From Alkalispirochaeta americana (GTDB taxonomy: Bacteria > Spirochaetota > Spirochaetia > DSM-27196 > Alkalispirochaetaceae): a stretch of DNA of 64,000 bases. Where the stretch lies: positions 62,001 to 126,000 of the forward strand of contig NZ_FTMS01000007.1 in assembly GCF_900156105.1 (NCBI RefSeq), read 5' to 3'. Position numbers and translations under genes: made by a program. Below, piece by piece: positions 2,666 to 62,047 of this stretch. The notes below the pieces were generated by a model. It was not told the origin of the DNA. It was given only the letters and a program-made list of their open reading frames with translations, and made no database searches. Position 1 is the first letter of the stretch. Each line of letters opens with the position of its first letter.

Positions 2666-3325
2666 ATGCAAGAGCCAGTCCTGATAACGGGTAAACAGTC
2701 GGCCTTTACAGACGATATGATCCAGGAGTTCCTCAATCGACAGCACCAGGTCTTCGCCACCGTCGATTCTGCCGGCGAACACCCCCAGGTTCCCGATTCG
2801 GTAGGGTCGGGGCTCTGCTATCTGCCCTGGTCGCGACGGTCGCTTCTCTCGGCACGGTCGGTGGTGCTGGCCCTGGAGGGAGAGACCCGCGAGGCGTCCC
2901 GGGCTGTGGTGGTCTGCGCTCCCGAAGGTATTCACACTCCCCTGCATCAGACCGAGTCTGCCCTGATCGAGCAGGGGGTAGATGCTGCGCTGAAGGGGTA
3001 CCTCTTTATTCTCAAGGAGGTGCTGGGATACTTTTTACGTCGCGGCTCGGGCGATATCACCGTTGTCTGGTACGATGGCGGTGCCGAGGTTCTTCCTCCT
3101 TTCGAGGCTGCGCTCTGCGGGGCCGTCCAGGGGCTGGTGCGTTCCCTCTTCGCCTACTACGAGGGGGAATCCGTGACAATTCGTGGCCTCCAGGCCTCGG
3201 AGAGCGACAGCAGGGCCGTGGCCCGGTGGGCGGCGGAGCAGATTATAGACAAGGCAGAGAAGTCTGCGGGGCGGTGGCAGAAATACGGCCAGCGCTCGGG
3301 ACTCCTCTCCTTCAAGAGAGCGTAA
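2666..3325 (+). CDS. SDR-fold-like protein lacking the catalytic YxxxK
   Basis: About 219 residues. The N-terminus (PVLITGKQSAFTDDMIQEFL) and the alternating strand/helix pattern (VVVCAPEG; a helix around GYLFILKEVLGYFL; AALCGAVQGLVRSLF) resemble a short-chain dehydrogenase Rossmann fold. The glycine motif is degenerate, however, and no Tyr-xxx-Lys is present, so it is probably not an active dehydrogenase. Start choice is uncertain: GTG at 2639 or ATG at 2666, neither with a ribosome site. A TACTAT hexamer at 2652-2657 just before the ATG would fit a leaderless transcript. It ends four bases before the symporter start, so the two are probably cotranscribed. Confidence 0.65.
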   Translation: MQEPVLITGKQSAFTDDMIQEFLNRQHQVFATVDSAGEHPQVPDSVGSGLCYLPWSRRSLLSARSVVLALEGETREASRAVVVCAPEGIHTPLHQTESALIEQGVDAALKGYLFILKEVLGYFLRRGSGDITVVWYDGGAEVLPPFEAALCGAVQGLVRSLFAYYEGESVTIRGLQASESDSRAVARWAAEQIIDKAEKSAGRWQKYGQRSGLLSFKRA

Positions 3326-38090: not shown

Positions 38091-38154
38091 GGAAGCCATG
38101 AGAAGCGGTGCCAGGCTCTCACGGCCGATGAAGAACTCCAGGACCGCCTGGAAG
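38091..38154 (+). pseudogene. Remnant of a third Rpn-family gene upstream of the intact copy
   Basis: The translation EKRCQALTADEELQDRLEA matches EKRYQAFTADEELQDRLEA of the neighbouring intact Rpn gene (38884-38943), but here it lacks the nuclease domain and ends in the leader of the intact gene. It is a fossil of an earlier tandem copy. Confidence 0.8.
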
Positions 38155-38204
38155 CATGGGTGCTCTTTGCAAGCACCAGGCCCCTCCAGTCTGTCCTGGA
38201 GGGT

Positions 38205-39179
38205 ATGAGTGCAACAGAAGAGCCTGACCGGACCACCGGCGCAACACCCGGGCGCATCCGACCCGCCGTTCCCCTCACGTCAGACTTCGTCTTCAAATAC
38301 GTCTTCGGGGCAGAACACAGTACAGAATGCCTGCGCAGTCTCCTCTCGGCCGTCCAGGAAGATGCCGGCTATCCGGCCGTTGCCTCGGTGAAGATCACCA
38401 ATCCCTTCAACCTGAAAGAATCGGAAGAGGACAAGCTCTCGGTGGTCGATGTGAAGGCCACGGATATCACAGGGGCAACCTACACCATGGAGGCCCAGGC
38501 GACCTACCACGCAGCCTTTGCCTCGCGAGCTCTCTACTACTGGGCGCGGGCCTACGGCAGGCAACTCCCGGAGTCAGAGATCTACAGTCGGCTGCAACCG
38601 GTGGTCGGGATCAACATTCTGGAATTTCACCTCTTTCCCCAGAGCGCAGGGGCTCCCCTGCATACCAGCTTCCGGCCCTATTGCAGAGAGGCACCCCAGC
38701 TGGACCCCCTGGGGGATTTTGTGATCCATTTCATCGAGCTGCCCCGGTTCGATCACCAGGGGCTCCTTCCCTCGACGGCCCTCGACAGATGGATGTATTA
38801 TATAAAGTATCGGGGCAAGGGGGTCGTTATGGAAGATCCGATCATGAAGGCGATTCTTGAGGAGACGTCCGAAATCAGGGAGGCCGAGAAGCGCTACCAG
38901 GCTTTCACCGCCGATGAGGAACTCCAGGACCGCCTGGAGGCACGGGACAAGTTTCGCCGCACCCACCTGCAGCTCCTCCACGATGCAGAGCAGAAGGGGC
39001 TTCAGCAGGGTATAGAGCGGGGACGCGAAGAAGGACTCGAGGAAGGACGAGAAGAGGGACGCGAAGAGGAACGGGTAAAACGCCTCGAATCCGCGCGCAG
39101 ACTCAAGGACCGAAAGATGTCCCTGGAAGAAATTGCCGAAATCACAAACCTGACTCTGGAAGAAATTCAGCAACTCTGA
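38205..39179 (+). CDS. Rpn-family PD-(D/E)XK nuclease, copy A
   Basis: A 324-residue Rpn/transposase_31-family protein. The nuclease domain begins TSDFVFKYVFGAE; SVVDVKATD and YTMEAQATYHAAFASRALYYWARAYG carry the acidic metal ligands (Asp; Glu-x-Gln). The C-terminus is helical with charged repeats (REEGLEEGREEGREEERVKRLE) and ends SLEEIAEITNLTLEEIQQL. Family members in E. coli are DNA nucleases with recombination-promoting and anti-phage effects. Start follows GGAGG closely. Nearly the same protein is encoded in inverted orientation at 52232-53182; relative to that copy the charged repeat has eight extra residues. Confidence 0.88.
   Translation: MSATEEPDRTTGATPGRIRPAVPLTSDFVFKYVFGAEHSTECLRSLLSAVQEDAGYPAVASVKITNPFNLKESEEDKLSVVDVKATDITGATYTMEAQATYHAAFASRALYYWARAYGRQLPESEIYSRLQPVVGINILEFHLFPQSAGAPLHTSFRPYCREAPQLDPLGDFVIHFIELPRFDHQGLLPSTALDRWMYYIKYRGKGVVMEDPIMKAILEETSEIREAEKRYQAFTADEELQDRLEARDKFRRTHLQLLHDAEQKGLQQGIERGREEGLEEGREEGREEERVKRLESARRLKDRKMSLEEIAEITNLTLEEIQQL
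38829..39179 (+). other. Internal in-frame start: C-terminal Rpn fragment (possible intragenic antitoxin), copy A
   Basis: Inside the nuclease gene an ATG (MEDPIMKAIL) follows AAGGGGG with five-base spacing. Translation from it would give 116 residues that lack the nuclease domain. The start is at the same position as the stronger AAGGAGG-backed internal start in copies B and C. Reports on E. coli Rpn proteins describe such in-frame C-terminal products as antitoxins; here this is inferred. Confidence 0.5.
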
Positions 39180-39240
39180 TCATTTCCCCACGCCCCACGC
39201 CCCACGCCCGGCGCCCGGCGCACCGGAAGGCCGATCTCCG
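39180..39240 (+). repeat. Rpn linker with heptanucleotide repeats, copy A
   Basis: Directly after the stop codon, three CCCACGC units and two CCGGCGC units (39187-39221) are followed by a stretch ending CCGATCTCCGG. The same linker, with one CCCACGC and three CCGGCGC units, follows copy B at 52174-52231 in the opposite orientation. Confidence 0.85.
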
Positions 39241-39363
39241 GGTCGCGAGGAAGAACGGGCAGAGCGTCTCGAATCCGCCCGCAGGATGAAAGCAGCCGGT
39301 TTGTCTCCTGAGGATATTGCCCGGTGCACTGGCCTGACGGAAGAAGAACTCCGGGGAGTGTGA
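39241..39363 (+). pseudogene. 5'-truncated, diverged Rpn tail after the linker
   Basis: The translation EEERAERLESARRMKAAGLSPEDIARCTGLTEEELRGV, closed by TGA, is a diverged version of the Rpn C-terminus (EEERVKRLESARRLKDRKMSLEEIAEI). Only about 39 codons remain and there is no start. It shows that the linker joins to an internal position of another Rpn gene. Confidence 0.82.
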
Positions 39364-52231: not shown

Positions 52232-52558
52232 TCAGAGTTGCTGAATTTCTTCCAGAGTCAGGTTTGTGATTTCGGCAATCTCTTCCAGGGACATCTTTCG
52301 GTCCTTGAGTCTGCGTGCGGATTCGAGGCGCTTTGCCCGTTCCTCTTCGCGCCCCTCTTCTCGTCCCCGCTCTATACCCTGCTGAAGCCCCTTCTGCTCT
52401 GCATCGTGGAGGAGTTGCAGGTGGGTGCGGCGAAACTTGTCCCGTGCCTCCAGGCGGTCCTGGAGCTCTTCATCGGCGGTGAAGGCCTGGTAGCGCTTCT
52501 CGGCCTCCCTGATCTCCGAGGTGTCCTCAAGAATCGCCTTCATGATCGGATCTTCCAT
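52232..52558 (-). other. Internal in-frame start: C-terminal Rpn fragment (possible intragenic antitoxin), copy B
   Basis: A perfect AAGGAGG (52564-52570) lies five bases before an in-frame ATG that starts MEDPIMKAIL. Such a consensus ribosome site within a coding sequence is unlikely by chance. It would give a 108-residue protein lacking the nuclease domain. Confidence 0.6.
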
Positions 52559-53182
52559 GGCGTCCTCCTTGCTCCGGTACTTTATATAATACATCCACCG
52601 CGCGAAGGCCGTCGAGGGCATACGGCCCGGAGGGTCAAAGCGGGGCAGCTCGATGAAATGGATCATGAGATCCCCCAGGGGGTCCAGGTGGGGAGCCTCC
52701 CTGCAATAGGGCCGGAAGCTGGTGTGCATGGGAGCCCCTGCGCTCTGGGGAAAGAGGAGGAAGTCCAGCAGATTGACCCCCACCACGGGCTGGAGGCGGC
52801 TGTAGAACTCCGACTCCTGGAGCTGCTTGCCGTAGGCTCTGGCCCAGTAGTAGAGAGCCCGCGAGGGGAAAGCGGCGTGGTAGGTGGCCTGGGCCTCGAC
52901 GGTGAAGGTGGTCCCCCGGATATCGGTGGCCCTGACATCCACCACCGAGAGCTTGTCCTCTTCCGATTCCTTGAGGTTGAAGGGGTTGGTGACCTGCACC
53001 GAGGCGAGGGCGGGGCAGCCTGCGTCTTCCTGGATCGCCGAGAGGAGGCTGCGCAGGCATTCTGTGCTCTGGTCTGCCCCGAAGACGTATTTGAAGACGA
53101 AATCTGACGTGAGGGGCACGGCGGGCCGGATGCGCCCGGGTGTTGCGCCGGTGGTCCGGTTGGGCTCTTCTATTGCACTCAT
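52232..53182 (-). CDS. Rpn-family PD-(D/E)XK nuclease, copy B
   Basis: A 316-residue protein almost identical to copy A (start MSAIEEPNRTTGATPGRIRP; TSDFVFKYVFGADQ; SVVDVRATD; FTVEAQATYHAAF). Metal ligands are kept, so it is probably active. Its charged repeat is eight residues shorter than in copy A. Even the 40 bases before the start are shared with copy A (CCAGGCCCCTCCAG, CTGTCCTGGAGGGT). It is in inverted orientation 13 kb away, so the pair could recombine and flip the segment between them. A longer upstream frame (to 53629) is antisense to the next gene and was rejected. Confidence 0.88.
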   Translation of the reverse strand: MSAIEEPNRTTGATPGRIRPAVPLTSDFVFKYVFGADQSTECLRSLLSAIQEDAGCPALASVQVTNPFNLKESEEDKLSVVDVRATDIRGTTFTVEAQATYHAAFPSRALYYWARAYGKQLQESEFYSRLQPVVGVNLLDFLLFPQSAGAPMHTSFRPYCREAPHLDPLGDLMIHFIELPRFDPPGRMPSTAFARWMYYIKYRSKEDAMEDPIMKAILEDTSEIREAEKRYQAFTADEELQDRLEARDKFRRTHLQLLHDAEQKGLQQGIERGREEGREEERAKRLESARRLKDRKMSLEEIAEITNLTLEEIQQL

Positions 53183-53438
53183 ACCCTCCAGGACAGGCTG
53201 GAGGGGCCTGGCGCTTGGGTGCGCGTCTCCCGGAGCGGAATGACCACGGTGGAATGACCAGGGTGGAAGGAGCAGAATAAACCGAAGAGATTGAAGGCCA
53301 GCAGAGGCCAGGCAAACAAAAAACAGGAAAACAGTGTATCCTTTGAGGATATGTGCAGGGCTCCTGCCCAAAGAAGCCCTGCCAAAAAAGCGGCGTCTGC
53401 CCGGCAAAGCCCCGGCAAGGCACCGGCAAGGAGAGGCC

Positions 53439-61063: not shown

Positions 61064-62047
61064 GTGAAGATTACACTGTGTGCGCTGCTTCCATTTTTCT
61101 TCCGGGGTCTGCTCTGCGCGGGGATGATTCTCGGGGGAGGTATCCTCTTTGGAGAGAGCCTTTTCTCTCCCGGGGAACTTCTTCTCTCGGCTGCTGCCGG
61201 GGGTGTTCTCCTTGCTCTGGTATACACGTATATGCGGCTTCTCGCAGTACCGGTGGTTCCCCTGGTGCTGGTGCCGCTCATGGCGCTGGTGCTTCTGCTT
61301 TTTTCCTCGCTGGTTTTCTTTCGGGCCGAGCTGGGGCTGGAGCGGCTGTATACACCGGGCCTCTCCCGGGGGGCTGTCCAGCGGGATCAGTGGTCGGGAG
61401 TTCTCCTTCACGGTCGGGGCACTTCGCTCTACGTGTCGCGCGATTCGGGGCCTGGCAGCGCAGAATCTGGCCCCCTGGGGAATGGTCATCATCCCGGGCG
61501 GGAGCAGAAGAGAATCTTTTCCGATGTGGTCCTGGTCCGGCACCGGGAGGTGCCCCGGCTGCGGGTTCATCGGGAGATATCCTGGGACACCGGAGGATCC
61601 CGGTTGATCCTGCCCGGGGGCGACGAGATCGGGACGGCCTCCATTGCCGGTTTGGGCAGAAGGGCCCTGCCTCCGGTTCTGCGACGTCTTACGAATGATC
61701 TCCTTCGGGTCTTCCGGGGGCCGGGGCGGGGTGATTCCCTGCCGGCTTTTGCCCTGCGGGGGGGCGCCCTCACAGCGGCTCTGGCCCTGGTCTGGGTTGT
61801 GGTGCGCCTCACCCGCTGGCCCTTACTCAACGGGGTTGCCGCCTTGGGCTGGATCCGGCTGATCCTCGCGGTTCCCCGGGGGGGCAGCTTTGCCCAGGAG
61901 CTCTGGCAGGAACAGGTGCCGTTCTTCCTGTTTTCGGAGGCCCTCCTCTGGGGGGTCCTGGCGCTTGTCCTGGTGGTGATAGCCCTGAGGCAGCCACCCT
62001 TTCGCCGGTGGCAGCGGGATACCCTGGGAATTGGAGAGAAACCGTGA
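61064..62047 (+). CDS. Membrane protein of unknown function, first gene after the DnaA-box cluster
   Basis: A 327-residue protein starting at GTG. Three N-terminal helices (residues 8-95) are followed by an extramembrane strand-rich region of about 125 residues (LHGRGTSLYVSRD, DVVLVRHREVPRLRVHREI, LILPGGDEIGTASIAGLG) and three C-terminal helices. No family was recognised. It overlaps the next gene by four bases (GTGA), so the two proteins probably work together in the inner membrane. Confidence 0.7.
   Translation: MKITLCALLPFFFRGLLCAGMILGGGILFGESLFSPGELLLSAAAGGVLLALVYTYMRLLAVPVVPLVLVPLMALVLLLFSSLVFFRAELGLERLYTPGLSRGAVQRDQWSGVLLHGRGTSLYVSRDSGPGSAESGPLGNGHHPGREQKRIFSDVVLVRHREVPRLRVHREISWDTGGSRLILPGGDEIGTASIAGLGRRALPPVLRRLTNDLLRVFRGPGRGDSLPAFALRGGALTAALALVWVVVRLTRWPLLNGVAALGWIRLILAVPRGGSFAQELWQEQVPFFLFSEALLWGVLALVLVVIALRQPPFRRWQRDTLGIGEKP

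Follow-up and report, generated by a model that had tools for sequence, protein, structure and literature searches.

The window analyzed here comprises 64,000 nucleotides, positions 62001–126000 of contig 7 of a 3.3-Mb source genome. A gene on its reverse strand, rpn copy B, carries the Rpn nuclease domain, as judged by its match to PF12784 (E = 2.4e-37; 129 bits, cut-off 27.4) and TIGR01784 (E = 8.8e-38; 130.7 bits, cut-off 52.1), and is by its sequence a member of the Rpn family (COG5464/TIGR01784/PF12784). The following features were assigned in copy B and directly upstream:

52232–53182 (−): rpn copy B, full-length PDDEXK_2-type Rpn nuclease (RpnL, 316 aa); from the ORF, PF12784 and TIGR01784
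52889–52939 (−): probable PD-(D/E)XK catalytic residues D82 and E96-x-Q98; from the alignment and model strands
52564–52570 (−): internal Shine–Dalgarno (SD) AAGGAGG; from the sequence and family-wide conservation beyond codon usage
52556–52558 (−): internal start ATG (M209, codon 209), in frame, 5 nt after the SD
52232–52558 (−): predicted short product RpnS-B, 108 aa, all-helical; from AF2 and the RpnA-S match
52343–52390 (−): four 4-residue repeats, GLQQ GIER GREE GREE; from the translation
53184–53205 (−): hairpin CCCTCCAG-cctgtc-CTGGAGGG covering GGAGG, one base before the full-length ATG; a perfect 8-bp inverted repeat

Copy B contains the D...E-x-(K/Q) motif. E96 was invariant and Q98 nearly invariant in the family alignment, and the AF2 model placed strands 81–87 and 92–100 around the candidate residues; by analogy with the Rpn family, D82, E96 and Q98 are probably catalytic. 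All three are encoded upstream of the internal ATG, and the 108-aa product contains none of them. The original prediction had described AAGGAGG five bases before an in-frame ATG in copy B, a product of that ATG comprising only a nuclease-free C-terminal part, the same site in copy C and AAGGGGG at the matching point of copy A. Each of these was borne out, with the internal start lying in the linker that follows the nuclease core. The 3' end of the 16S rRNA of the source genome bears the anti-SD.

Tandem copies and repeat variation

Escherichia coli Rpn genes (RpnA–E and RpnP2) are gene-within-gene RpnL/RpnS toxin–antitoxin systems with experimentally proven internal initiation, and intragenic Rpn antitoxins, free-standing RpnS copies, tandem arrays and repeat variation have already been described (Zhong et al. 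2023, PMC10327210). The statement in the original prediction that an in-frame C-terminal product counters the toxic nuclease in E. coli agrees with that work. Copy B resembles these systems in its PD-(D/E)XK nuclease, its in-frame internal SD and start, and a C-terminal product with variable 4-residue repeats, and its locus resembles theirs in tandem duplications and downstream free-standing RpnS copies. The related features in the window were as follows:

38205–39179 (+): rpn copy A, full-length paralogue, 324 aa, six repeats; 88% identical protein, PF12784
38817–38831 (+): copy A internal SD-like AAGGGGG and ATG, 116-aa product; from predicted anti-SD pairing
39214–39354 (+): C-terminal Rpn remnant downstream of copy A; tblastn match to residues 268–314, 57% identity
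51760–52122 (−): copy C, free-standing RpnS-like ORF, 120 aa, seven repeats; tandem partial duplicate of B, 222 nt at 98% identity
52128–52134 (−): copy C SD AAGGAGG; from the sequence

Fifteen Rpn matches were found in the source genome. Copies A and C are among them, as are a copy on contig 22 with a frameshift and several copies cut short at the ends of contigs. An Rpn C-terminal fragment, EKRCQALTADEELQDRLEA, lies directly upstream of copy A (38100–38160, +) and is a sign of an older tandem array. Four near-identical copies on contigs 8, 34 and 7 (L006, L008, L009 and L010) differ in the number of GMQQ-type repeats, and some of them are N-terminally truncated but keep an intact RpnS part. 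Most of them are found at the ends of contigs, and such arrays therefore probably break the assembly.

Homology between B and C begins about 50 nt before the internal ATG. Copy C has a further ATG upstream (52158) that lacks an SD, and its translation is predicted to start from the same SD and ATG as the internal start of B. Repeat number varied as in RpnL/RpnS, being four in B, six in A and seven in C. Inhibition by RpnS is confined to RpnL proteins whose repeats match (Zhong et al. 2023, PMC10327210), and by this published rule copy C, with seven repeats against four, may not neutralize B. The arrangement recalls rpnE-S (ypaA), a free-standing RpnS downstream of rpnE as C is a C-terminal copy downstream of B, the difference being the unequal repeat number of C and B.

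That B and C are decaying duplicates, with C degenerate debris instead of a free-standing antitoxin, is unlikely, and would be compatible with the best explanation for B. Several fragments in the genome, C-terminal remnants and the frameshifted copy with its weakened SD (L003/L005) speak for decay, whereas A and B are intact full-length ORFs and C retains every amino acid of B across the 56 codons that lead from the internal start up to the repeats, with three synonymous changes; the repeats themselves differ by in-frame 12-nt units. A comparison of A with B shows 93 differences in the 624 nt that precede the internal ATG and 8 in the 168 nt that follow; at the protein level, 36 of the first 208 residues differ and one of the next 56. 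Either purifying selection or gene conversion centered on the short-product module would give this pattern. The neighbors of copy B encode histidine kinases, a solute-binding protein and an AraC regulator; a defense-island context was rejected because these are housekeeping genes.

Anatomy and expression signals of the short product

In the AF2 model of the full-length protein, M209 falls in the linker that joins helix 192–202, the final helix of the nuclease core, to a helical arm at the C terminus (212–220, 222–236, 238–294, 299–306 and 310–315). RpnS-B modeled alone was all-helical with a pLDDT of 87. The family profile matched the crystal structure of E. coli RpnA-S (PDB 7TH0) with E = 0.0045, and 7TH0 was also the best Foldseek match of RpnS-B (target TM 0.74, 33% identity over 45 columns, though E = 1.7), the match covering only the last ~45 residues. 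From the profile and fold matches, the C-terminal half of the product appears RpnS-like, with ~50 residues added at its N terminus compared to E. coli; model and sequence thus support RpnS-B as a separable RpnS-like module. Foldseek of the full-length model returned no significant match, and the top non-significant ones included the PD-(D/E)XK enzymes EcoT38I, EndoMS and Cap4.

The layout departs from that of E. coli in several respects. The nuclease of copy B belongs to PF12784, unlike that of E. coli RpnL/RpnS. Published repeats begin 8–20 residues after the internal start, a descriptive rule and not a functional requirement (PMC10327210), compared to 56 residues in B and 51–56 in most relatives tested. 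The internal start therefore lies ~40 residues further upstream, and the short product, at ~100 aa, is about twice the ~49–60 aa of E. coli. A second Rpn type of the source genome (L014, also L013) resembles the E. coli type and keeps its layout, with a 62-aa product:

Contig 4, 2740–3300 (−): L014, AGGAGG-aattc-ATG, 'EEFMSTAQ', start about 10 residues before the repeats

Both layouts consequently coexist in this genome.

Zhong et al. 2023 (PMC10327210) report that an rpn gene of Clostridioides difficile makes RpnS in E. coli and that its internal RBS and start are required, and copy B has an internal RBS and start too; Leptospira interrogans is among the species named there as having repeats. 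The proposal that the E. coli architecture extends to a spirochaete was accordingly supported, but as a smaller step than had been supposed. What is new relative to that study is the start position at the nuclease boundary and the about twice-longer product, the intragenic antitoxin itself being known. A search for literature on the long-RpnS layout beyond Zhong et al. 2023 found none in the library covered.

Several signals bear on the expected ratio of the two products. In 46 of 58 clusters of the family set described below, the internal SD exceeded in strength every SD candidate at the long start (P = 4e-7). Predicted anti-SD pairing of AAGGGGG in copy A was −11.2 kcal/mol, equal to that of copy B through G–U pairs. 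The hairpin over the long-start GGAGG recurs upstream of copy A with a changed loop, with folding z-scores of only −1.6 and −1.4, and is possibly a brake on RpnL translation. Together, the stronger internal SD and the hairpin fit an antitoxin made in excess, short of proving it. Local unpairedness at the internal site was unremarkable (0.26–0.37 vs 0.40–0.44 for the whole segment). An internal promoter was sought family-wide and gave no excess (Fisher 0.21); copies A, B and C have the sequence TATTATATAA in common upstream of the internal start. A palindrome similar to the long-start hairpin covers the SD of another rpn gene, L028.

The short product could instead be made as a structural subunit or DNA-targeting partner, as is Cas11d from cas10d, where an in-frame C-terminal product likewise arises from an internal start; the Cas proteins are unrelated to Rpn, and their product is a structural partner, not an antitoxin. 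The extra ~50-residue helical segment absent from E. coli RpnS, an HTH-like end on the short product and the concentration of A/B differences before the internal start would suit such a role. We consider it improbable, given that the C-terminal part is homologous to RpnA-S, an inhibitor in E. coli (PMC10327210), and that the short start has the stronger SD, as one would expect if an antitoxin is made in excess.

Conservation of the internal start across the family

Taken alone, the copies in the window are uninformative. AAGGAGG occurs 21 times in the 64 kb against 16 expected. Lys is encoded by AAG in 56% and Glu by GAG in 62% of cases across six window genes, and with a GC content of 62%, AAGGAGG results from ordinary codons for Lys-Glu-Asp about 36% of the time, which makes the site of copy B unsurprising by itself. 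Copies A, B and C taken singly have an SD such as codon usage would give (P ~0.3–0.5), and significance from the window copies alone was rejected. Copy C was likewise rejected as evidence of conservation, being a 98% identical duplicate of B that contributes nothing independent.

The internal start was therefore assessed in a set of 150 PDDEXK_2-type Rpn genes, taken both from spirochaetes and from further bacteria, with a class sample around Desulfosporosinus among them; the genes were clustered at 60% identity into 60 clusters and aligned. The score was the strongest SD before any in-frame ATG, GTG or TTG in the site segment (copy B residues 183–225, from the last core strand to the Y..F..D motif). 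As the null, synonymous codons were shuffled within each gene and the same minimum was scored, so that picking the best site brings no bias. Across the 60 clusters, the mean best SD energy in the site segment was −9.7 kcal/mol compared to −5.7 for the null (Fisher P ~1e-21, an optimistic value since clusters at 60% identity are not fully independent, which leaves the contrast with control segments unaffected), and 73% of clusters reached −9 kcal/mol or lower. Four control segments in the identical test gave no SD excess (Fisher 0.2–1.0), with only 0–3% of clusters that strong. One of these four, the segment just before the repeats (228–270), where E. coli-type starts lie, showed no SD or start excess in the family, and an E. 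coli-like start close to the repeats was rejected for PDDEXK_2 Rpn genes. In one Clostridioides gene (L206), the best internal start leaves 70 aa and stands about 20 residues ahead of the repeats.

The proven internal starts of E. coli rpnA and rpnE, used as positive controls, each gave P = 0.0175, and rpnC, whose internal start is also proven, gave P = 0.22; the test thus misses real sites and cannot judge single genes. SD energies of −7 kcal/mol or lower were found in 139 of 150 genes, mostly with an SD–start spacing of 5–8 nt. Leptospira interrogans, Bacillus, Priestia, Paenibacillus and Selenomonas all have named plasmid genes with the site. Genes lacking it are those of Haliovirga and Parabacteroides, two phage genes (one from a Wolbachia phage), family members L109, L110 and L138, and the Bacteroides members of the family, from a phylum in which SDs are little used. 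A search of viral contigs returned no relatives of the PDDEXK_2 Rpn subfamily.

On one reading, Lys-Glu-Asp in preferred codons merely happens to spell AAGGAGG and the Met is structural. Codon-preserving shuffles of copy B do equal the observed SD strength in 36–52% of trials, but this coincidence is very unlikely to explain the family-wide excess that the control segments lack. The SD is moreover kept in all codon phases (about 19, 20 and 12 clusters in phases 0, 1 and 2) over residues as varied as KEVIM, TEEDKM, GRPDAM, LEEIAM and EVRKM, which indicates that a nucleotide motif is retained and not a peptide. AT-rich genomes use the rare AAG and GAG at the internal SD, and in 25%-GC Brachyspira-like genes AAGGAGG was individually significant in most cases. 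The original prediction had named residues kept while the SD is lost as the pattern that would count against it. This was seen in two genus-level copies, L018, which retains KEDA with a weakened SD, and the frameshifted L003, whereas family-wide the opposite held. Its argument that a conserved internal site implies selection is hence upheld for the family, though not on the single gene and copy C from which it was drawn. Equally hard to sustain is a translational pause aiding folding, with no second protein: the site lies exactly at the domain boundary, yet a pause needs no start codon, and an in-frame ATG, GTG or TTG stood at initiation spacing in 51 of 60 clusters (start codons being part of the site choice), the four relatives with Val in place of Met at the matched site all use GTG, itself a start codon, and E. 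coli homologues demonstrably initiate within the gene (PMC10327210).

Nucleotide-level selection on an internal start is therefore strongly supported by sequence comparison across the family, in Spirochaetota and Firmicutes-type bacteria, and on the same comparative grounds the internal start of copy B is almost certainly real.

Proposed two-product scheme

Copy B is likely to be an Rpn-type gene-within-gene toxin–antitoxin. It would give two proteins, RpnL (316 aa) from the 5' ATG and RpnS (108 aa) from the internal site, the latter driven by a second ribosome-binding site at the boundary between nuclease and C-terminal region. Sharing the helical oligomerization module and the 4-residue repeats of RpnL, RpnS would, like its E. 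coli counterpart, pair with it and keep the nuclease inactive; were RpnS released, for instance upon phage infection, a toxic DNase would be set free. Given a real internal start, an antitoxin role is very likely by homology to the systems of Zhong et al. 2023. Family conservation, domain anatomy and relatedness to RpnA-S all favor the internally translated, nuclease-free C-terminal antitoxin put forward in the original prediction. We infer translation of the short product from these data, and toxicity, inhibition and phage defense by homology.

If the scheme is correct, many genes annotated 'Rpn transposase' of the PDDEXK_2 type each encode a hidden second protein. Most such genes are annotated as single-product, and assays of toxicity or defense would be misread because the inhibitor is co-expressed. 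With the conserved internal site, the two products of any PDDEXK_2 Rpn could be separated precisely, and the length of this RpnS raises the question of which half binds the nuclease. More broadly, we give even chances to PDDEXK_2-type Rpn genes of Spirochaetota and Bacillota forming a second layout, with a two-part RpnS of ~100 residues and a nuclease-boundary start kept wherever initiation relies on an SD. Partial duplications in tandem, of which copy C is one, would then yield free-standing antitoxins whose repeat number is unlike that of the neighboring toxin, shifting which toxin is inhibited.

A 32-nt imperfect palindrome, GGCACGTACCGGACCGGAGGGAGGAACGTGCC, was also observed in rpn genes of two species, though not at the same position: in L003/L005 of the source genome (contig 22, 11241–11272), where the reading frame is broken at the palindrome and the internal SD is weak, and in L025, from a second genome of the genus. 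Of seven genomes examined in this genus, three carry a single copy each, two exact and one with two mismatches.
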